Source: Acorus gramineus (taxonomy: Eukaryota > Streptophyta > Magnoliopsida > Acorales > Acoraceae). Taken from it: DNA of 64,000 nt. Under the pieces are notes generated by a model that had not been told where the DNA came from, searched no databases, and saw only the letters and a program-made list of their open reading frames with translations. Both the position numbers and the translations under genes were made by a program. Of the stretch, positions 3,592 to 57,284 are shown piece by piece. Location: NCBI GenBank assembly GCA_030737835.1, contig CM060850.1, positions 6,563,299 through 6,627,298 on the forward strand, in the 5' to 3' direction. Every line of letters begins with the position of its first letter. The first letter of the stretch is position 1.

Positions 3592-4257
3592 GGACTCTGC
3601 AGCCCGTCACACGGGGGTTGCGATCGGGATCCCGTGTTTGCAACATGAGCTCTGTTACACAGCTTTTGCATTTGCACAAAGCTAGTTCTGTAATCGTACA
3701 ACTAAAAAGTTTTACAATTATAGATTTTTGCAGACAGATTCCAAACAAATATTGTACAAAAGCTATTATTGAAAAAAACTAAAGGGAGACATAATTAATT
3801 TTAAACTTGCGTTTGCAAAAAATCAGTTTTACAATCCTGCTACTAAAGTCTATTTTCCAACCTTAATTTAAGTCGAATATGTTCTTTAGCGTCATATAAT
3901 AAATTTCAGTCATCTAGAAATCTTACAAGCTTGTATTGACTCTACTCATATGTTCATTATATATCAATGATGTTTTTATGTCATAATTCATACACTTTTG
4001 GTAAATTTTGATTAAGCAGTTCTTATTTTTTTAATGAGACATTAATTTGATAACTTACGAGTCTTAGGCAAGTAGCCTGAGCTCGATGAAACATTCATGT
4101 GTGTCATAGTGTCAGTTTGTGATGAGAGATTTATTTTTTTTGTTTCTTCAGAAAGAAGAATAAAAAAACTATTAGAGGTGGTGTTATTCATAGTTCCCTT
4201 TGATAGAAATGGTGAATAAGAGAACCAGAATGTTGTAGCTAGTGTTATTGACAAATG

Positions 4258-4616
4258 AGGAGTATTCTATTTGGTTAACCCCTGACTAAAAACACAATAT
4301 ATCTAAAACCCCTACAATATGTTAAAAATACGAAAAATCATTCATAAATGACGACTTTACCCCTCCGGATAGGGTTTTATAATCTATTCGGATTGATAAA
4401 TTATTTATTTATAGAGGATTTTCTATATTTTTAATATATTGTAAATGTTTTTTTGGTATACTGTCTTTTTAACCAAGGTTAACCAAATAGAATATTCGTT
4501 GAATATTTCTTTTCTATCAACGGAAGTTTAACTCAGAGGATTATTTGGATTTACATAAGTGTTTTTAGGAGTTAAATAAACTAAGAAAAATCAAAGGGTC
4601 GTATGAATTTCTGACA
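4258..4616. repeat. Partial copy of a palindromic MITE family (family P, copy 1)
   Basis: The copy shows the family signature: TATTTGGTTAACCCC near its left edge and the inverse GGTTAACCAAATAGAATATTC about 220 bp later, followed by a 'ttatttggattta...' outer arm. The left outer arm is missing. It matches the better-kept copy at 41786-42280 and the diverged copy at 15827-16225. No coding capacity. Confidence 0.6.
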
Positions 4617-6275
4617 GTTTACAGTGGATGCTGTAAGTGTGCTGCTGCATGGCCTTCATTTGACCCCTTCATGTATTAGAATATCTATTTCAGGCCTTTA
4701 GCAAAATCAGGACTAGCTGATCAGGGAATATGAAGGATTAGTGCTGGACTTAGTCTCTCATCACATCGGATGCTTTTATGTGAAATGTATTCTTATATGA
4801 ATGAATACATGAGATGATTAGGTATCTTGAAGTGACCTGAGTGAGTTCAGTGAGGTAGAGATGACAATGAAAAATGATACATCTGACCGAAAAATAGCCC
4901 CAAAAATTGTCTAAAACTGTCATGTACTCTTTGTTTGACTTTGATTATTTTTTCTTCTGCATTTTTAAAATACATATAAGTGTATATGACCCGAAGGTGA
5001 TTTTTCGAGCTGAGTGTATTAAAGCTCGATAACAATAGGTTGGAAGAGATGACAAAATTTATGTGGGTAACCTGTCTCATTTGTGTTATGACTGAGTGTG
5101 GTTCCCTGTATGTTATACCAAACCTATACCAAACTTGCTTCGTTCCAACTCGATGCTGACATAGATTGAGGCATTGTCTCATCCTATTTATCCAAAAAAT
5201 TGTTAAGATTGATAAATGGTAACATATAATTTACCATTAATGATTTCCTTACATAAAAATGAGCTAAAATGATTATGGATGAAAAATAGAATATCACACA
5301 GTTAAAAATGACAAACTTTCAAATTTAGGAGGTTAACTCTACTATAAATAAAGTTGGTCTATCCATTATTTTTCTTTTCCTCCTTTTTAACACTTGATGA
5401 ACCCAAGTATTTATCAGATAATATTGGGATGTATCAGGTGCTACTTGCTAGGGCATGTCCCACATTCATCAGATCCTGACTTGCAATTGAACACTAGGAT
5501 GCCATCTTGATCAAAATCCAAAAAATCAATTCAATCTTTTCCATTGCATTGAGTTGCCATCCAAAAGATCCATTCACAATTTCTGGGGACAAGTATTAGC
5601 ATCTACAACTTGAAAAACATGAAGAAAAGTTTCAACATATCAGTTCCAGCATTTTGTACAACTAAAACTGAATCTAAACTGAATCTGGTACCCTTTCTTC
5701 TTGGAGGGTACCTCATTCAAGTTGTAGTCCTGCTCATAAACTAAGATTTAATCATTAAAAAAGCACTTGCTACTAAAAAAAAACCTAATTTAAACCTGGC
5801 CTCATCAAGACTTTTCAAGCTTCCAATTATTTAAATAAATGTACAAATCTCATATAGAGATTAAAGAAAGTGTGTTTGTGCATAGCATACACAAAAAAAA
5901 TGTCTACATTTTGTTGTCACATGGAAAAGACCAAAAACAAAAAACTGTTGATTCCAGATACAGAACACACCATAGAGTGATGAGCATCCTCAGATACATC
6001 TAGGAAAAAAAATAGACATCAAAAAGAGGAGGGTACAAATTTACATTGATTACATACAGACGGAAGTTACACTGGTTCCAGTCATAACACACCCACCAGA
6101 AGAATTAATCGCTTTGATTGTCTTCGAATAAGTTATACATGCTAAGCTTTCCAACAATCCACCATGTCTTCAAATGACTAATGCAGTGAGAATGACGTCT
6201 GGATGCAATATCTGCTCGTTATATCAGTTATGATTGTTCAATCTGATAATACAACATGAATAACATGTATTCTTC
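4617..6275. other. AT-rich spacer 3' of the CONSTANS-like gene, no gene recognised
   Basis: Only short open frames with no family likeness. The right end must hold the 3' UTR of the minus-strand CONSTANS-like gene, whose stop codon is at 6276-6278. Nothing else was identified. Confidence 0.4.
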
Positions 6276-15593: not shown

Positions 15594-15773
15594 ACTCCAC
15601 ACGTGTGAAGGACGGCTGGTAGTGGTGGACCTTTGGGAAAGGCAGCATCTCGTCCGTTTATTGGGTGTACCTTGCATTGTGGACTCCACACGTGTGAAGG
15701 ACGGCTGGTAGTGGTGGACCTTTGGGAAAGGCAGCATCTCGTCCGTTTATTGGGTGTACCTTCGCCATTGTGG
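15594..15773. repeat. 89-bp tandem duplication carrying a G-box palindrome
   Basis: Two nearly identical head-to-tail units (about 15594-15682 and 15683-15773) each begin ACTCCACACGTGTGAAGG and end near GGGTGTACCTT. Each carries the palindrome CACACGTGTG around a CACGTG core (15600-15605 and 15689-15694). The copies differ by a few bases near their right ends, so the duplication is recent. Confidence 0.9.
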
Positions 15774-15826
15774 ATGATTGTGGCGCGCACTCAACCACTA
15801 TTTGTCCACGTCACCTTAAAAAAATA

Positions 15827-16225
15827 GAAAAATATCCTTGTATCTATATAACCTACTGTAAAATAATCCCTATTAAATTTTTGTTTACAGATGAGCGAAT
15901 ATTCTGTTTGGTTAACCCTAATTAAAAACATAATATACCAAAAAACACTTACACTATGTTTAAAATATAAAAAATCATGTATAAATGATGATTTTACTAT
16001 TTTGAATTATTTTTCGTATTTTAAACACATTATAAAATTGATATATTATGTTTTCTGACAAGCTTAACCAACAAAATATTTGAAGAATATTTTTCATCTG
16101 TCAACAGAAGCATGGGCTTATTTATATTTATATATATGTTTTCAAGAGGTTATATGAACTTCAAAAAAGATTAGGGAGTTATATGAATTTTAAACAGTTT
16201 AGAGGGGGTTATTTGAATTTTTCCC
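15827..16225. repeat. Diverged copy of palindromic MITE family P (copy 2)
   Basis: The outer arms read GAAAAATATCC at the left and GGTTATTTGAATTTTTCCC at the right, with the inner signature TTTGGTTAACCCTAATTAAA and its inverse AGCTTAACCAACAAAATATT. It shows the same order of modules as 41786-42280. About 400 bp, non-coding, older than copy 3 judging by divergence of its arms. Confidence 0.65.
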
Positions 16226-29698: not shown

Positions 29699-39356
<9,658 letters not shown>

Positions 39357-41785: not shown

Positions 41786-42280
41786 GGGAAAAATCCATAT
41801 AACCCCCTGTAAACCGACTGAAATCCATATAAGCTCTGATTTTTCTTAAAATCCATATAATCCCTTGAAAATATCTAGTGAATCCAAATAACCCCCTGAA
41901 TAAAATGTATGTTTATAGATGATGAATATTATGTTTGGTTAACCCTGATAGAAAACACAGTATACCAAAAAAACCTTATAATGTGTTAAAAATGTGAAAA
42001 ATCTTGTATAAAAGATGATTTTATCCCTCTAGATTGGGTTTTAAAATATATCAAGAGAGGATAAATCGTTATTTTTATAGAATTTTTTACATTTTTAACA
42101 CATTGTAGTGGTTTTTTAATATATTGTGTTTTCAGTCAGGGTTAACCAAATGAAATATTCGTAAAATATTCATCATTTATTAACGAAAATTTTATTCATG
42201 GGGTTATTTGGATTTAGTAGGTGTTTTCAGAGAGTTATATGGATTTTAAAAAAAATCAGGGGGTTATATGGATTTTTCCC
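41786..42280. repeat. Best-kept copy of palindromic MITE family P (copy 3)
   Basis: The 495-bp element is close to one long palindrome. The ends are GGGAAAAATCCATATAACCC and GGGTTATATGGATTTTTCCC, and the inner halves GTTTGGTTAACCCTGA and TCAGGGTTAACCAAAT also pair. The arms hold repeated 'aaatccatataa.cccctg' modules. No clear target duplication was found, and no coding capacity. The right end directly abuts the left end of the element at 42281-44671. Confidence 0.85.
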
Positions 42281-43241
42281 TTAACTCCCTGAATTCTTTG
42301 TAAAATCACAAAAAGTCTATGTAAACTTTAAAAATCAGATTAGGTCCCTGTGTTTCCAATGTAATATCCCCCCTGTCGTGACACCACGTAACCCAGCTAT
42401 AGTTAACACTAACCCGACATAAAAGATTACAAAATTACCCTTCCTTCTCTTTTCACTCACGTGAACACACATCGAGTTTTTGTATCCTCTTCTTTTCGCC
42501 GATCACTTTCTCTTCTCCCTCGCGAAACACGAATCTGTGACTGGTTGGAGCGGTCTATCTCGTGCGATCTGTGACTCTCTCACAGTGAGTCTCTCACACT
42601 CACAGTTCGATTTTCTTTTTTTCTTTTTGATTTGAGAATGTAAGGCTTGGATGGTTTTTCGCTTGGATTTGGATGTGCATTATGTGGATTTAGGGGATTT
42701 AGGGATAGATGTGCATTCTCTCACAGTAAGGCTTGGATGGTTTTTCGTTATGGACATTAGCATATGTTGGGTGTTTGCTTATTTATCAAAATGTTGAGTG
42801 TTTGCTGCTGTTGAAAAGATTTTTTTTTTTTTTTTTTGGAATACGTTGTAAAGATTTGTTGATGTTGAATAGTTTTTGCTGCTTCTGAATAGTGTTAATT
42901 GCTGTTGAATAGTGTTTCTGTTGTAGAGAATGGCATATGATACATATACATGGTAGTGCTACGTTTCTGAAATGGCAAAATGCACCCACACAGGGTAGTG
43001 CAGTCCACATGTAATGTAAGAGTTTCTGAAATGGAACTTTTGGGCTGATTGTAGTAACTGAACTTCATTTAAAGACAAAGCAGAAATTACATTACTTGAC
43101 TTCATTTAATGACAATTATAATAAGTATTGAATTACATAACTAGATTCAAAGAGACTTCTTATAAATAACATACACTAAAAATAGAACAAGAACAACTAG
43201 ACAAATCAATATCAAAGTAAGTTTGTTATTCAAGCTTTGCA

Positions 43242-43585
43242 TCAAATTGAGCCTTCTCTACAGTGACTGTTCAAGACCGATGAGCTGATACTGATATCGA
43301 TGGTAGAGTGATTCGGATCATCGACCCATTCAAAGATATTGCAATCAGCATGAGTCTACAACAAATTAGATAAATTAGTTTCATGAATGTTTGGTTGATA
43401 GACAAAAACAACAAATATATGGGTTGAGTTTGATTGGCATACCCTGTACATGGGGCATGAGTAAAACCTCTGACCTTTGTTGTGTGCTTGCCGAGATGTC
43501 TTGATTACACAATCACCTTTCTTGCATCGACATTCACATGGTGGAATGTATCCCATATGAAGGCCTGGATACACTACTTGATTCC
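43242..43585 (-). CDS. GRF-type zinc-finger protein, partial model
   Basis: Two exons, 43443-43585 and 43242-43355, join in phase through a GT-AG intron. They read NQVVYPGLHMGYIPP, then CECRCKKGDCVIKTSRQAHN, KGQRFYSCPMYR, and after the junction THADCNIFEWVDDPN. This is a complete GRF zinc-finger pattern: a Cys pair, the KTS and N-x-G-x-x-FY-x-C core, and the final Cys followed by a FEW tryptophan motif. GRF fingers bind single-stranded or structured nucleic acid in DNA-repair enzymes; the many short plant GRF proteins have no known role. The upstream exon was not resolved, although an ATG (ATGTCAAAATGT) with an adjoining donor-like site lies at about 43709-43720. The gene sits inside a TIR element. 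Confidence 0.55.
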
Positions 43586-43725
43586 TGAAAACCCAAACAA
43601 TGCAAACCGAACCCAAAAAATCTTTTAGGAATTTTATCAAACATTTGAAGTGTTCACCACAAAACAGAACTTCCACTTTATGAAAAAGATCAGTTCTTCA
43701 AACTTACACATTTTGACATTGTTGA

Positions 43726-44248
43726 TAGGGCTGCAACTCGGGCTGGTTGGGTTCGGGTTGACCCCAACCCGAATCCAACCCGAATTTCAAACTACTCAAC
43801 CCTAACCCGAACCAACCCGATTTTCAACCCGAATCCCGAATCAACCATAAATTAAATAAACCAACCCGACTCAACCTGAATTGGACCAACCCGGCCCAAC
43901 CCAATTTTCAACCCGAATTGGACCAACCCGACCCAACCCGAATTTCTAACATGATGTGCAAATTAAATAAATCAACCCGACCCAACCCGTAAGATTAGCT
44001 AGGTTTACTTAAAATTTAGACTACCTAAATTAGAAGCTATAGAATGAACGGCCATGATTTTTTTTTTTAACTATTAATTTACGGGTTCGGGTTGGGTCGG
44101 GTTGTGAGTGAGGCCAACCCAAACCCAACCCGATTTGTGAGTCAACCCGAATTGGCGAACCCGAACCCGATTTGGTCAACCCAACCCATGTAAAAATCGG
44201 GTTCAACCTGTCGGGTTCGGGTTCAACCCGACGCAAGTTGCAGCCCTA
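43726..44248. mobile_element. Non-autonomous hAT element built of AACCCGA-rich repeats
   Basis: The ends TAGGGCTGCAACT and AGTTGCAGCCCTA are perfect 13-bp inverted repeats. Both are flanked by ATTGTTGA (43718-43725 and 44249-44256), an 8-bp target duplication typical of hAT. The interior is a string of CCAACCCGA or GGGTTCGGGTT units in inverted halves, able to fold on itself. It interrupts the likely leader of the GRF zinc-finger gene. A degraded relative lies at 51115-51300. Confidence 0.88.
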
Positions 44249-44671
44249 ATTGTTGACGATCTCTTCGCGATGGTGATGCTCTCTGTGGGCTGTGGTGGTG
44301 GGTAAGTAATAAATGGACTAAATCCTTGAAGCCTTCTAACTTGAAATGGGCGGTGATAGACCAAATTCGTGGCTACTTTGTAGGAGAGTATGGTGGTGGG
44401 TCTGCGAGGGGCGAATGGTGGGTCAATGGTGGTATTGGCAGGAGAGGATGAGATTTATAGGGAGGAGATGGTTTCCAACGACTACATTTTTCTAACCATT
44501 GAGACTTGAGAGGGATTTCAATAACATTCTCTACAAACTAACATCAAATTGACCGGAGGACTAAATCAGTTAACCATATGCATTTTATAGGGACCTAATA
44601 TGATTTTTGAAGTTTACATGGAATTTTTGTGATTTTACAAAGAATTCAGGGAGTTCAGACCATTTTTCCCT

Positions 44672-46915: not shown

Positions 46916-49639
46916 TTACCTGGTTCTCCATTCTGAAAAATAATGGTCAATGTGCTCCCAATCAATTAAAACAATGGGGACGTGCCTAACCTTTGGACGA
47001 TCCTCTCCTACTGATCCTAGTCTCTCCAAGAACTCTTCAGGCATATCATAAATTCGAAACTCTTGGAGTCTTATGAGAAATTCAATCCCCATGGGCAGCT
47101 TCTTCAACTCTGTGCAATAACGCAGTTCTAGTAGTTTGAGTCTCTTCATTGCTCCTTCCTCTATTATTATCTCCTTGAGTTCATTCAACCCAATCAATTG
47201 AAGTTGAATGAGAGAAGGGAAACCTCTTCCTTGGAAGCGCATTTGTCGCCCATCAAATGCACCGCCAAGCCAGAGGTAAGCAAGCTTGGGTAAGGATTGA
47301 AGGGAAGGAATTGGATCTTCCCTTAGTTTGCATCCTCTTAGAACAAGACGAGTGAGGTTTGCAAGGTAGCCAAACCACAGAGGCAATGCATTTAAACGCC
47401 CATCAAATTTGAGCTCTGCAAGGCATTGTGGCGGATTCAGTGTTTCCAACTGCAGTCTTCCACTGCTTTCATCTGATTCCATGGACAAACTGACAAGGCA
47501 TTTCAGCTTAGCTAATGAGTCAGACAACTTTGCGCCATCGGAGGTTTTCATGTCTCCGATTCCGAGGGATCTGAGTTGGGTGAGGTCCCCAACTTCTTGA
47601 ATGACCTGACTATTTGCTCTTATACCGATTAGAGTTTGCATGTCTTTCAAATCACCAATGCTTCCTGGCATTTGAATCGATGAGTTCCAGTAAGGTAACA
47701 TCATGTGACGTAATTTCGTTAGCTTTCTAATTCCATTTGGTAGCTTCTGCACCTTGCTATAAGTGAGGTCAAGGGTTTGTAGATTGTTAAGCTTAACTAT
47801 GGATTCAGGGAGCTTTCTAACATTAGTATTACGAAGGCTCAAGAATCGTAGATTGAATAAATTACCCACAGCATTAGGCAAGCCGTGTAATGACCGCACC
47901 CCCTCGAGATCCAGAACCCTCATTGATCTGCATGCTGAAAATGCAACAGTATTCAAGGTTTTGCAAGGAAAACGCGTCGGGTGACCAAACATCATCAGAG
48001 TTCGAAGACGGGACATTTTATTCTTGCTTTTCAGCATATTGTCTTCGATCTTATGCAATGACAACCTACGAGTTCTATTCTCTGGTTGGAGCTCACCTCC
48101 ATTGTACATCATGCAGAAGTTCTCTTCTTGAGAAATAGTAACCGCCATCTCTCTCACCAGATCATGCATTCTAAATCCTTCAGTTTCTTCAAAAATATAA
48201 CGTATCACGGCAACCTGAAGCAAGCTTCGTGAAATGAGATTGTCAAAGTAACCCTCCGCTACCTCCTCCATTGTCATCCCTTTTTTACCTTCAATGAATC
48301 CTTCAGCCACCCACAATCTAATAATCTTATTTTTACGAAACAAAAAGCCTTTTGGAAATGCACTGCAGTATAAGAAACAATTTTTTAATTGATATGGTAG
48401 AACTTCAAAGCTAAGCTTCAAGATGTCCTTTATCCTTTGGTCACCAACCAAGAAAGAATCGAAGCCACTGATAACCATTCTCCAATAGGAGATTGAAGTT
48501 TTCGAACACATGAGTCCACCAAGCACGACAATCGCAAGAGGCAAACCCTCACACCTCTTCACAAGTTCTCTTGCCAAGTCCTCCAACTCACCAGGGCAGC
48601 AACTCCCATGAAATGCTCTTTTGCAAAATAGGGCCCATGCTTCATCTTCCTTTAGGGGCTGCAGCTTGAAAACAAAGTCTTCTGATGCTAACTTTGAAGC
48701 TACATCATAGTCACGAGTAGTATATACTATTTTGCTTCTACACATGCTAATCGGAAATATTACACGAATATCATCCCAACCATCTATAGACCATATATCA
48801 TCGAAGAAGATAACACACCTTTGTTGCTGCATATGATCATGAATCTTTTGGATCCGTTCCACGCGATCTATCATTTGAGCATTTGGTTCGACATGCTTCT
48901 CTCGGAAGAACTGATGCATTATGCTTTCAAGAACATTATCAATAGTGTAGGTTTGGGAGACGGTCACCCACGCACGAAAGTTGAAATTCTTCGTTACTTC
49001 TTGGTGGCCGTAAACTTGGGCCACTAGTGTGGTCTTGCCAATTCCTCCCATTCCTTGCACCGCAATGACCCCGCATTTGGTTTCTTCGTCGTTGGTCAAA
49101 CAATCGATCAACATGGTTCTATTCTCTTCGATGCCGAACAATATCTCATCACTACGATTAATCAGAGAAACAGCTGCACGGTGTTCTCGTATGTCAATAG
49201 GATCATCAGCTGGAGCAATCGATTTCCCTCTCATATCCTTGTCATCATATTGGATTTTCCTCTTATGTATGTCTTCTAACTGAATTCTAATGTCTTTCAG
49301 TTCTTCAGAAACACGAATCCAATTGATGGCGTTCTTCAAGCGATGTACATATTTCTTGATGGAACCAGATATGGTTCTCCCATGCTCTCCGGCGAGATGA
49401 GTAAACTCATCTAGGATGTCTTCAATGTCGAGCGCCATTTCCTTCACTTCCTTTATCCAGACTGCCACGGATCCGTTGATATCCCTCACTTGATAGGCAT
49501 GTTCTATGACAGGTTGCATGGCCTCTAGCTCCTTCATTATTCTCTTCATCTCCTTCTTAAGGCACACCAACTCCATTGCTTGGACTGCCACGACAGAGCC
49601 AATCTTAGTGACCAAACCTCCCAGAATGCGTTCTGCCAT
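46916..49639 (-). CDS. CC-NB-LRR disease resistance protein, RPM1-like
   Basis: Intact single-exon frame of 907 aa. Such proteins are intracellular immune receptors: the NB-ARC domain switches between ADP and ATP forms and triggers defence and cell death. The N-terminal Rx-type coiled coil spans about residues 1-130 and includes the EDVID-like DIEDILDEF (71-79). NB-ARC follows with P-loop GMGGIGKTT (196-204), kinase 2 CVIFFDDIW (275-283), an RNBS-B TTRD, GLPLAIVVLGG (365-375) and MHD at 491-493, all with key residues kept. About a dozen leucine-rich repeats run from about 530 to the end. The absence of an N-terminal TIR domain places it in the CNL class. The stop codon overlaps a splice-donor-like AACCAG/GTAACT, so a further 3' exon cannot be excluded. 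Ligand or effector is unknown. Confidence 0.95.
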   Translation of the reverse strand: MAERILGGLVTKIGSVVAVQAMELVCLKKEMKRIMKELEAMQPVIEHAYQVRDINGSVAVWIKEVKEMALDIEDILDEFTHLAGEHGRTISGSIKKYVHRLKNAINWIRVSEELKDIRIQLEDIHKRKIQYDDKDMRGKSIAPADDPIDIREHRAAVSLINRSDEILFGIEENRTMLIDCLTNDEETKCGVIAVQGMGGIGKTTLVAQVYGHQEVTKNFNFRAWVTVSQTYTIDNVLESIMHQFFREKHVEPNAQMIDRVERIQKIHDHMQQQRCVIFFDDIWSIDGWDDIRVIFPISMCRSKIVYTTRDYDVASKLASEDFVFKLQPLKEDEAWALFCKRAFHGSCCPGELEDLARELVKRCEGLPLAIVVLGGLMCSKTSISYWRMVISGFDSFLVGDQRIKDILKLSFEVLPYQLKNCFLYCSAFPKGFLFRKNKIIRLWVAEGFIEGKKGMTMEEVAEGYFDNLISRSLLQVAVIRYIFEETEGFRMHDLVREMAVTISQEENFCMMYNGGELQPENRTRRLSLHKIEDNMLKSKNKMSRLRTLMMFGHPTRFPCKTLNTVAFSACRSMRVLDLEGVRSLHGLPNAVGNLFNLRFLSLRNTNVRKLPESIVKLNNLQTLDLTYSKVQKLPNGIRKLTKLRHMMLPYWNSSIQMPGSIGDLKDMQTLIGIRANSQVIQEVGDLTQLRSLGIGDMKTSDGAKLSDSLAKLKCLVSLSMESDESSGRLQLETLNPPQCLAELKFDGRLNALPLWFGYLANLTRLVLRGCKLREDPIPSLQSLPKLAYLWLGGAFDGRQMRFQGRGFPSLIQLQLIGLNELKEIIIEEGAMKRLKLLELRYCTELKKLPMGIEFLIRLQEFRIYDMPEEFLERLGSVGEDRPKVRHVPIVLIDWEHIDHYFSEWRTR

Positions 49640-52622
49640 GATTTGCTCTCTATTGTTTGTGGTGGACCTTTTTTTTTTTTGGTGGTGGCTAACTTTGCTT
49701 AATCAGAGAGCTTTTACTTCTCTCTCATTTATCACCAAAAAAATAAACACAGGTATTCCTCTGGTAATGAATATTAAGCTCCCTTCATTACACAATTCTC
49801 AGGTGAGAAAGGCTAGAGAAGTTTCCTCGAAGACTTTTTGATGCATTGAATTATTGTCATAGCAATGCTTGAATGTCAAACATGACAGCTCATGCTTGTG
49901 AATTGATTGGGATAATATCAATTGTTTATAATTTACCTGAGTCATTTATATTGTTTGTTTTTGGTTTAGGTAGGGGAGAAGCAGACACCCCTTGCTCCTT
50001 TTATATTGAAAAGTTCAAAGTTTTCATTCCCACTTGCATCTCTTTGTTTTACAATAATGATTTATGGGCTTCAAATTATAGACCCCGTTACAAGCCCCAT
50101 GAAGTGACACACGTAGAATACCCTTTTTACCCCTTAATTAAATAAAATATATTTTTTTTTGTAACAACTTTCCTTAATTTGAGGATTGGGTTACACATTT
50201 AAAACTGTCCACCGAAGAAACAGTTCGATCCCTTCCTTTTTTTGTGTGTGGAGACTCGATCGATGCGCAGATGGCCGCCGCAGCAGACGGCGGCTCTCGC
50301 GTTTTGATTGGAACATTTAGGGAGATTGGTTGATTTTTTTAATGATCTGAATTTCTTTTTTGTTTTCAGTTGAATCTGTTATTTGATATTTTCTAGTTTT
50401 TCATTCACCTGTATTTTATTTTATTTTTTTGTCATCTAAATTAATGCAGTTACATTCCTTTAAACAGTTGATCAAACACATTTATTTTGAAAAAGTGACC
50501 CAATGTAATCCAGTTACATTCATTTGGACAGTTTTTGTTTTTTAAAAGTCAAATACATTATTTAAGCATGTATAATCTTTTATAAGTATTTGAATCAATT
50601 TAGTTACATTCAAATACATTTGGTTTTGAATTCAAATACATTTGTATCTAAAAAAAAATTAATATAGGGTTGTATCTAAATCTGTATCTGAAAAACTTAT
50701 ATACTCATCTATATTTGTATCTTAAATTATTTTTAGGTACATCTGCAGGTGAACAAACTAATATATGCTTAATATATGGTTGTATCTTAATCAATATTTG
50801 TATCTTGTCTAGAAACCTAATATATTCATTTATATTTGTAACTATATCTTAAAAAAGGTGAAAATAGAAGTAACTAGAGGCCGGAGGGGGGCTCGAAAGA
50901 TAGCTGATCCACCTCTCATATGAATCCAATAGTGGTGACACCGGCCCGCAAGGAATTTTTTAAAAGATAGAGTATTGTATTGGGAGATGGTTATAGATTA
51001 TAGGGATTGTTTTTCTTGGGATAGAAAAACTAAAATTTGAAGAAAGGATGATGTTGTCTTTGATGCTTTTATTTTTTAAAAAGTCAAACAGAGAACCAAT
51101 GAGATAGTGACACCTAGGGCTGTAACTTGGGTTGGGTCCAACCCGAACCCAATGGGTTGAACCCGATTTTCATGCGGGTTGGATTAAAAAAAATAGGTTT
51201 GGATTCGAGTTGATGAATTCGGGTTGCTTGTAAAATCGGGTTGGATTTGGGTTGACATCATAGACAACCCGAACCCATGATATACACCCAACATGATAGT
51301 CAATATAAGATGTTAAATTGTTCTCTTTTGTAATCTACATGATTATGTTGGACCCAATCTAAACATATCTTTCACGTCACAGAACTTCAAAAACCCTCGC
51401 CGCCCCCCTTTCTTTCCTCTTCCACTCCTCTCTCCATCTTCAAAAAAATATATATCCAAAATAAAAGGCAACAGTGATGCTCATCTGCTGTATGATTTCT
51501 TCGTGACTCTCTCTCTCTCTCTCTCTTCCTATTAAAAAAAAAAACCCCAAAAAACTAGTGATGGTAGATCTTCAGTTCTAGATGGTCTTTCTCTCATTCT
51601 CTTCAAGAAAAATGTAATCGTTGATGGAAGATCCTGTGTTTCATGGTTTGTTAGAGATGGATTTCTCTGTTTGGTCATGCCAGGAATATGATTTAAGGTC
51701 AAATATGATTAAGGTCATAATTTAAAAACACCCTTCAGTACTTGCAGATAATGCAGAACGACCACATCGCAAGACGACCACCACCACCACCATCAAACAT
51801 CATGGCCTCATAGCCATGACTAATTTTGATAATATTATAATAGAAATTATCATTCATGAATAAGTAAACACACGCACAAAATTGCAAGTAATTTTCTTTG
51901 TAAATGAATGGAAATTTTTATTCTAGAAAAAAAATATTAAATCAAAAGATATCAAATAAAAAAACTAGGTAGCTACATGGTCAAAGTTGTTGGGTATTTT
52001 CAAAGTTTAATTTCAAATTTTGGGTTTTAGTAGTCTCCCCATTAGAAGATGAAAGTGGTCATATTCTTTAGTCTCACATCGATTGTTTGTAAAAGGTTTT
52101 GAATATTTATAAGAAGAGCTCAATCTACTTTAGTAAAGTCTTTTTGGTGGACATCTTATGGTGGACCTTTGATACGGGGTGATGCGGCACCACCACGCGT
52201 GGTATTGGGCGATCGTTTTGATCAGATGCAATCTGAACCCTTCGATGAAGGAACGTCCAGATGCAATGTGCGCCGTTGGATTGACAATTGGTGGTTATAT
52301 TCAGCGAGGGGTGCCATTGGATGGGATGCATCTCGTGATGGACAACCTGGACCGCACGATCGCGTGAAAACGGTGGACTACCGATCGGATCAAACGGTTC
52401 CTGTAACCCCCATTCATGGAAGGGTGTCTCATTTGAACCAAAAGGCAACATTATGAGAGTAGGCTTCATTATATCCTTCCATTGTCCCGTATAACAACAA
52501 TGTTTATTCACCCTTTCAAACAATCAAACATGAAAAATAAAAACTAAACTAAAACACCACTGACATAATCGTTTATTCACTCTTTCAAACAACCAAACAT
52601 AAAAATGAAAAAGAAACTAAGG
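49640..52622. other. Spacer between the NB-LRR gene and the strictosidine synthase-like gene
   Basis: The left part should hold the NB-LRR promoter and leader, including a T run just upstream of the start. A 21-codon GC-rich frame (MAAAADGGSRVLIGTFREIG) sits at 50271-50333 with no partner exon. A truncated hAT relative lies at 51115-51300. A GC-rich block at 52150-52470 looks like part of a dispersed repeat. No confident gene. Confidence 0.4.
51115..51300. repeat. Truncated relative of the AACCCGA-type hAT element
   Basis: It begins TAGGGCTGTAACTTGGGTTG, matching the left terminus of the element at 43726, and continues with CCAACCCGAACCCAATGGGT and GTTGGATTTGGGTTGACATC modules. The matching right terminus is not present, and substitutions are frequent. 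It is an old partial copy. Confidence 0.65.
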
Positions 52623-55760: not shown

Positions 55761-56238
55761 GGGCATAGATCAGTTGAGATTGGATTAGTTAATGTGGTTA
55801 TAACATATTACACAAAATATATATAATATATCTAACGGAAAATATTAACAAATATCTAAATAACAAATTAATCACCCACAGTTAAGTGTGTAACTACCCT
55901 CATGTATTTTAATTCAGTTTTAATCCTTGCTTAAACTTCTTTCTAAAATCTGTTTATATGCTTTATATCATTTACAGATAATTAACTAAGAACAAAATCT
56001 ATCTCAAAAATATTAGCAAATATCTAAATAACAAAACTCTAATAAATAAATATTAAAAAAGAATTCACTGAAATTAGTAATCACCACCATGACCTAGTCA
56101 CGTCCTAAATTTGTAAATTTTTCTTCCAGGCAGTCATTTGGAATTAATTGCCAGGGGAGAAATTGTTTGGGTTTTTGGTATACTTATAGCCTTCAAATAC
56201 ATGGTATTTATTTATTTATATATCACAATTAATAATAG
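55761..56238. other. AT-rich spacer, no gene recognised
   Basis: Upstream DNA of the strictosidine synthase-like gene. It contains the short direct repeat AATATTA(A/G)CAAATATCTAAATAAC at about 55843 and 56009. Nothing else was identified. Confidence 0.4.
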
Positions 56239-56988
56239 TGAAAATACCCAAAAAAAATTTCTAAGTATTAGAAATACCTAAATCAGTCATTTTAAAAAAT
56301 TATACATAAAAAAGTCTTCTTTCACAATTTTAAAAAGTAGAATGACTTGATTACCCTTATGTTATCTACTATTTAAATATTATCAGATAAATTTAATTTT
56401 TTAACAAGGATATTAATAAATAATAAAATATTTTTATATGTGCATGAAGTTTATTAATATTTTTTGTATATCTAAATACACCATTAAGAGTTAAATTATA
56501 CAAAATTAAAAATTTTCTTTATAAAATATTTTTTTTAGATATTTCTAAACTCTATAAAATCTTGTGGGGCACTTACATATGTTTAATAGTATCAAAAAAA
56601 TCTTATGCATAATATTTATAAGATACATAAATAACAAAAAAATTGAAAAGTTTTTTAAAAAGTTTGAAAATTCCAAAAAAAAAAATATTGTAAATTTAAT
56701 AATGAAAATTTTGACAATATTAACATTTTTATAGTATATTTAGAAAATTTAAAAACATATAAAATCACTCTCAAATAAAGCTTTCTTATATTGATATTAT
56801 TTTTTAATTAGATGGTTGTGTGGAAAATTTTAAATATGGTGCAGAAGATTTTAAAAATTATAAGAGACTAGTTATTTGCATCATTTCACGTTATGAGATT
56901 GTTAAAAGATATATTTTTTTGGTATAATTATTAAAAGAAGCTGTTTTGGGTATTTTTAATCTTTATAAGACTTTTTGAGGTATTTTCT
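56239..56988. repeat. AT-rich element with long imperfect terminal inverted repeats
   Basis: The left arm starts TGAAAATACCC and contains AGTATTAGAAATACCTAAAT and AAATTATACATAAAAAAGTC. The right arm read in reverse starts GAAAATACCTCAAAAAGTCT and contains ATTAAAAATACCCAAAACAG and AATTATACCAAAAAAATA. The arms pair imperfectly over about 90 bp. About 750 bp, no coding capacity and no clear target duplication, so the family stays open (a Mutator-like MITE is possible). Confidence 0.45.
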
Positions 56989-57156
56989 CTATTTATTGCC
57001 TATTTTATTTAATTTGAATTTTTTCAAAATATTTTTAACATATAATTTATTAATATGATTTTCATTTTCACGTCATCTACAAATAAATCTATAGATCTAT
57101 ACATATCTATATAATTTAATTAAGTATTTATCAAAAACAATGCATGATAATTTTTA

Positions 57157-57284
57157 GAGAAAAATCTATGTAACTCCCTGAAAAATTAACAAAATCAGAA
57201 GAAAAAAAATTCCCTAGGTGTGTATGGTTAATGGTTTTAATCCTTAAGTCAAACTACTGTTAGTTTGTAGGGAATATTAGAAGA
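57157..57284. repeat. Fragment of the GRF-element terminal repeat family
   Basis: GAGAAAAATCTATGTAACTC at the left, and GTATGGTTAATGGTTTTAAT followed by ACTGTTAGTTTGTAGGGAAT further right, match in order the inverted right end of the element at 42281-44671 (GGGAAAAATGGTCTGAACTC, CATATGGTTAACTGATTTAG, GATGTTAGTTTGTAGAGAAT). Only one end is present. It shows that the terminal repeat belongs to a dispersed family. Confidence 0.5.

Follow-up and report, generated by a model that had tools for sequence, protein, structure and literature searches.

Results

Genes and repeats at the locus

The window, by which we mean the whole 64-kb stretch of DNA analysed here, resembles plant nuclear DNA, with NLR, PPR and B-box genes recognized by Pfam and a G+C content of 35%. 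At 42281-44671 it contains a GRF zinc-finger gene that lies between terminal inverted repeats (TIRs); we refer to the repeats and all that they enclose as the GRF element. The GRF element has also been struck by other transposons, one of hAT type that is nested within it and one, a MITE, that abuts it. The features are listed below, with the analyses on which each rests.

41786-42280, unstranded: palindromic MITE, ends GGGAAAAATCCATATAACCCCCTG, directly adjoining the GRF element on the left (inverted repeats, ends and flanks)
42281-42349, plus strand: left TIR, its outer 13 bp missing (inverted-repeat alignment, end inspection)
42350-43146, unstranded: left interior, which looks noncoding, its ORFs having no transposase match (ORF list, Pfam)
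43147-43257, minus strand: tail ORF that encodes a strong transmembrane helix (LTLILICLVVLVLFLVYVI) in a frame other than that of the finger (hydropathy)
43242-43355, minus strand: GRF exon, second half of the finger (THADCNIFEWVDD...), the frame closing at a stop (ORF list, Pfam, splice join)
43356-43442, minus strand: 87-nt GT..AG intron that interrupts the finger (splice-site analysis)
43443-43584, minus strand: GRF exon, first half of the finger (CECRCKKGDCVIKTS..NKGQRFYSCPMYR) (ORF list, Pfam, splice join)
43708-43719, minus strand: putative first exon (ATGTCAAAATGT before GTAAGT), with that donor out of the finger frame (splice join)
43726-44248, unstranded: nested, non-autonomous hAT-type element with ends TAGGGCTGCAACT (target duplication and inverted ends)
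44454-44459, minus strand: TATAAA upstream of the putative 5' UTR (pattern only)
44589-44670, minus strand: right TIR with intact outer end GGGAAAAATGGTCTGAACTCCC (alignment, terminal-motif scan)
57157-57280, plus strand: degenerate related terminus, with no detectable GRF sequence or partner end (alignment score against a null)

Elsewhere in the window, an NLR gene (Rx_N, NB-ARC, LRR) occupies 46916-49702 on the minus strand, as a single open frame of 928 aa, separated from the GRF element by about 2.2 kb. A pair of 89-nt inverted repeats (73%) at 56234-56993, with 582 nt between them, is probably another MITE, and there are direct tandem duplications at 31071-31411 (167-179 bp, 87%) and 15594-15774 (about 91 bp, 97%).

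The terminal inverted repeats

The initial annotation described inverted repeats of about 75 bp. Such repeats are present, far beyond chance expectation, although their length is 70 bp and the left tip is missing. The 70-nt ends at 42280-42349 and 44589-44658, about 2.3 kb apart, are inverted with respect to one another and 93% complementary, with 65 of 70 positions paired and the differences made up of two transitions and three transversions. Their local alignment score was 120, as compared with at most 49 when pairs with this geometry were placed at random in the window 2970 times (3000 draws, from which the 30 near the element were left out). We take the GRF element to be an old insertion, since the divergence between its TIRs (K2P 0.075) fits one. 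The right end extends 12 bp beyond the 70-bp match and reaches GGGAAAAATGGTC / GGGAAAAATGGTCTG at 44670, giving 82 bp in all, whereas the left end breaks off at TTAACTCCC (42281).

The MITE that abuts this broken end, at 41786-42280, has perfect ends of 26 bp. A clean insertion of the MITE with a target duplication of its own was considered and rejected, there being no repeat of 2-11 bp at its borders. It belongs to a family of long palindromic MITEs with three copies in the window, of which those at 4255-4627 and 15861-16225 are 64-75% like the first; repeated units like AAATCCATATAACCCCCTGA lie near the ends of the copy at 41786-42280.

A search for flanking target duplications had been proposed with the initial annotation, and none can be read for the GRF element, from which the left outer 13 bp are missing. 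If the MITE and the GRF element are treated as a composite (41786-44670), TAAAAA is found on both sides, an exact 6-bp agreement in A-rich flanks that falls to 6 of 9 positions at 9 bp; as random pairs of all-A/T sequences match at 7 or more of 9 positions in 11% of cases, this agreement proves nothing. No target duplication of 8-11 bp was found around the composite.

The motif GGGAAAAATNNNNNTAACTCCCTGAA, a pattern written from ends already seen, was matched, with up to three mismatches allowed, five times in the window and never in 100 shuffles. Two of these matches are the ends of the abutting MITE, a third belongs to another MITE, at one of its ends (16200-16225), and the last two are the right terminus of the GRF element and the degenerate end at 57157. 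The MITEs, the GRF element and the 57157 repeat therefore have termini of one type. In a direct comparison, the right ends of the GRF element and of the abutting MITE were also alike (66% over 94 columns, E 2e-4).

The right end of the GRF element and the related end at 57157-57280 align at a score of 102, against a maximum of 78 in a null of 300, with about 66% identity over 122 columns and well past the 70-bp TIR match. The left end aligns with the 57157 end at a score of 43 against a null maximum of 64, which is not beyond chance. No partner end for it was detected in the window (scores of 53 and 52 against null maxima of 62 and 64), and in the 2 kb beyond it the GRF exons gave scores within the shuffled range, equalled or exceeded by 3 of 60 shuffles for exon 2 and by 11 of 60 for exon 3 with the tail.

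These ends might be taken to mean that there is no single element at the locus, and that an ordinary, decayed host GRF gene lies between two separate, oppositely oriented inserts of one repeat family. Such an arrangement would suit ends that are alike over 70 bp only, with a left tip missing and no target duplication, and also the solitary end at 57157, which matches the right end well beyond 70 bp and the left end not significantly. The restriction of the likeness to 70 bp, together with the failure to find an 8-11 bp duplication around the composite, likewise counts against the single transposon that we favour. We nevertheless consider the arrangement of separate inserts very unlikely, because the two ends are 93% alike, as against about 66% for the solitary end and the right end, because both ends face outwards as expected, and because the gene occupies much of the interval between them.

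Searches with the ends and the finger were also made in prokaryote and virus collections. A 24-nt TIR core was absent from the genome contigs and the terminal pattern from the viral contigs, results that have no bearing on plants. An exact 18-nt TIR core occurred at 11 loci in viral contigs; the best matches to the element there were of 18-19 nt, none was accompanied by a match to the GRF protein, and we rejected them as chance. The GRF protein pattern picked out 3 viral-contig and 12 genome-contig stretches, none of which was confirmed by tblastn, and these were rejected too.

A complete GRF finger in a gene that looks decayed

On the minus strand, 43584-43443 and 43355-43242 join to give ..VVYPGLHMGYIPPCECRCKKGDCVIKTSRQAHNKGQRFYSCPMYRTHADCNIFEWVDDPNHS.., which matches Pfam PF06839 at 43.3 bits (gathering cut-off 25.9, E 4e-11) and covers positions 3-44 of the 45 in the model. 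Among solved structures, the GRF fingers of NEIL3 come closest, with E-values of 4.5e-11 and 1.9e-10. The earlier description of a small, intron-containing gene with a complete GRF finger is thus borne out for the finger, which is complete, and for its one GT..AG intron; the gene as a whole does not look intact. No other GRF finger was found in the 64-kb window by tblastn and a motif scan, the remaining tblastn matches having E-values of at least 1.2, and neither a parental gene nor a second copy with the same ends and finger was seen within it.

The frame of the finger terminates after ..NSHCREGSI and directly behind it, in another frame, reads LNNKLTLILICLVVLVLFLVYVIYKKSL. The best 19-residue hydropathy of this tail is 3.39; of 794 stretches of its size in the window, counting those over the tail itself, 2 attained this value, as did none of 2000 shuffles. 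Within the stretch tested, finger and helix cannot be connected by any GT..AG intron of at least 60 nt, and the frame is broken behind the finger. A GRF finger with a membrane anchor is a known plant GRF layout, and the finger and tail would once have formed a single protein.

On the other side of the finger, exon 2 is preceded by a TTTTCAG acceptor. When this is joined to the GTAAGT donor of the putative first exon, translation from the ATG at 43719 yields MSKCESSSVSRPSYGIHSTM and then a stop, and is not in the frame of the finger. A second frame break, before the finger, is likely, although eight weaker donor/acceptor pairs (donors GTGTAA or GTTTGA) count against it by joining the same ATG to the finger without a stop. 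Besides the TATAAA upstream of the putative 5' UTR there is a further one starting at 44589, likewise recognized by pattern only.

The nested element, of 523 bp, lies directly before the ATG and is a later insertion within the span of the GRF element. The hAT superfamily is defined by an 8-bp target duplication and short terminal inverted repeats. Here a perfect 8-bp duplication, ATTGTTGA, is present at 43718-43725 and 44249-44256, and the ends form a perfect 13-bp inverted repeat, as expected of a hAT-type element. Once this insertion and one of the two duplicated copies are subtracted, the GRF element is 1859 bp long. A relative of the nested element is found at 51101-51275 (74% over 176 columns), and this hAT-type family has interior repeats CAACCCGAACCC / GGGTTCGGGTTG.

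Could the gene still work, as a source of a finger-only protein made by use of the weaker first-intron sites or of an internal ATG (MGYIPPCECRCKKG..)? This would be compatible with the other readings of the locus. The finger is complete, its GT..AG intron is intact and the eight splice pairs do yield open joins to the ATG at 43719, for example MSKLVYPGLHMGYIPPCECRC. Nevertheless, the GTAAGT donor gives the wrong frame for the finger, the membrane helix is out of the finger frame with no splice connecting the two, and 523 bp have been inserted in the 5' region; a working gene therefore appears highly improbable to us, and the GRF gene looks decayed.

Transposase search and affinities of the element

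According to the initial annotation the element holds no transposase, and this was upheld: none of 30 ORFs of the element (18 of the 19 in one ORF list and 14 of the 42 in another, two being common to both) matched a transposase when compared with Pfam up to E 10. The matches obtained, other than GRF, were weak, unrelated and below the cut-off (Peptidase_C78 0.007, Chordopox_A13L 0.009, zf-C2H2_ZN142 0.01 and others) and were rejected as chance. The noncoding-looking left interior amounts to about 0.8 kb. A search of Rfam with the 40-60 kb part of the window gave no match.

We believe that the GRF element is most probably Mutator-like, because an end of the 5'GGG...CCC3' type on its right, TA-rich targets and long TIRs agree with what has been described for plant MULEs (PMC9168764; PMC6446971). 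Its TIRs, at 70 bp and 93%, are long in the sense used for MULEs, those of the MUDR group being 30-320 bp in Table 1 of PMC6446971. The GGG...CCC termini are seen at the right end of the GRF element; the corresponding position at the left is taken by the MITE, which has such ends itself. A MURA-type transposase, demanded of autonomous MULEs only, was not recognized in the 30 ORFs. Gene sequence, which in a Pack-MULE would derive from a host gene, sits between the TIRs, and no parental gene was seen within the 64 kb.

Discussion

The locus is best read as a small, old plant DNA transposon with an almost whole GRF zinc-finger gene, from which the frame into the tail has been lost; the initial annotation, although confirmed only in part, was largely right. 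The explanation that we prefer, an old non-autonomous Mutator-like element that captured a GRF-membrane gene and later suffered decay and insertions, has as a whole about an even chance of being correct. In this explanation a non-autonomous TIR transposon, about 1.86 kb long before the later insertions, would have taken up one whole short host gene, encoding a GRF finger and a membrane anchor, from promoter to tail. The captured gene would have been transcribed inwards from the right end of the transposon, and the GRF element would have been moved by a transposase acting in trans. The gene would afterwards have decayed, its frame being broken between the finger and the membrane tail and probably also upstream of the finger; the hAT-type element would have inserted directly before the ATG, and the left tip of the GRF element may have been removed or replaced by the MITE.

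Plant transposons carrying host-like genes are well known. A near-whole gene inside the element, with TATAAA, ATG, finger and membrane tail, is compatible alike with the two readings offered in the initial annotation, the capture of a host gene and a gene that the transposon family regularly carries. Capture is our first choice, because no recurrence is shown here and gene captures are common in plants (PMC6446971; PMC9168764). Alternatively, GRF-membrane proteins might be encoded by a regular accessory gene of the family, lying opposite a transposase gene since lost, like mudrB or ORFR, and the present copy might be an internal deletion derivative. Additional genes that run opposite to the transposase have been described in MULEs (mudrB, ORFR of Abermu and the PMD genes; PMC9168764; PMC6446971), and the start of the GRF gene near the right end, from which it runs inwards, is like that of such genes (PMC9168764; Table 1 of PMC6446971). 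The gene is also nearly whole and not a fragment, since it has a TATAAA and a membrane tail and its ATG precedes a GTAAGT donor, and the left interior could be a remnant of a promoter/UTR region left after the deletion. Set against this, no remnant of a transposase was found in the 30 ORFs, the sole related end in the window, at 57157, shows no GRF sequence over the 2 kb beyond it, and among the papers listed none has a title that links GRF genes to transposons, MULEs or Pack-MULEs. The end at 57157, a single and degenerate copy, lends the accessory-gene reading no support. On balance we regard that reading as possible but doubtful. The wider proposal, that a Mutator-like lineage has genes for short GRF-membrane proteins as its accessory genes, in the way that MuDR has mudrB, and that transposition of this lineage explains the large numbers of such proteins in plants, seems to us unlikely.

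Many short GRF genes are said to be annotated in plants, as the initial annotation also stated. Should GRF genes prove to be regular in a transposon family, this would provide a direct and testable reason for their abundance; if only capture is involved, the locus is a further example of a decayed transposon that carries a gene. For searches of the host genome, the 82-bp right end (44589-44670) offers a ready probe.

Comparison with known systems

In the 'At4g04775-like' class of short plant GRF proteins, the GRF finger is followed by a single hydrophobic helix, a membrane helix at the C terminus; here these pieces are out of frame with one another. Among elements that carry gene sequence, the tomato Pack-MULE PM-ZIBP is, like the GRF element, a small TIR element without a transposase (PMC3310237). 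It holds a fragment of the gene for a zinc-ion binding protein, whereas the GRF element holds a nearly whole gene and has neither a readable target duplication nor, within the window, a parental gene. Section 3.2 of PMC3310237 names no specific zinc protein for PM-ZIBP, and 'GRF' is absent from the main text of that paper, as it is from the main texts of PMC9168764 and PMC6446971.

Abermu, with its ORFR, shares with the GRF element long TIRs, TA-rich targets and, as far as the right end of the GRF element goes, GGG...CCC termini, and has an extra gene opposite its transposase (PMC9168764). The Abermu reference element differs in its length of 8.2 kb, its transposase, its 9-bp target duplication and its likely autonomy. 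MuDR, with mudrB, and the plant MULE groups with antisense PMD genes differ from the GRF element in having a transposase, and GRF is not among the fingers and motifs given for them in Table 1 of PMC6446971; they share with it an accessory gene on the opposite strand.
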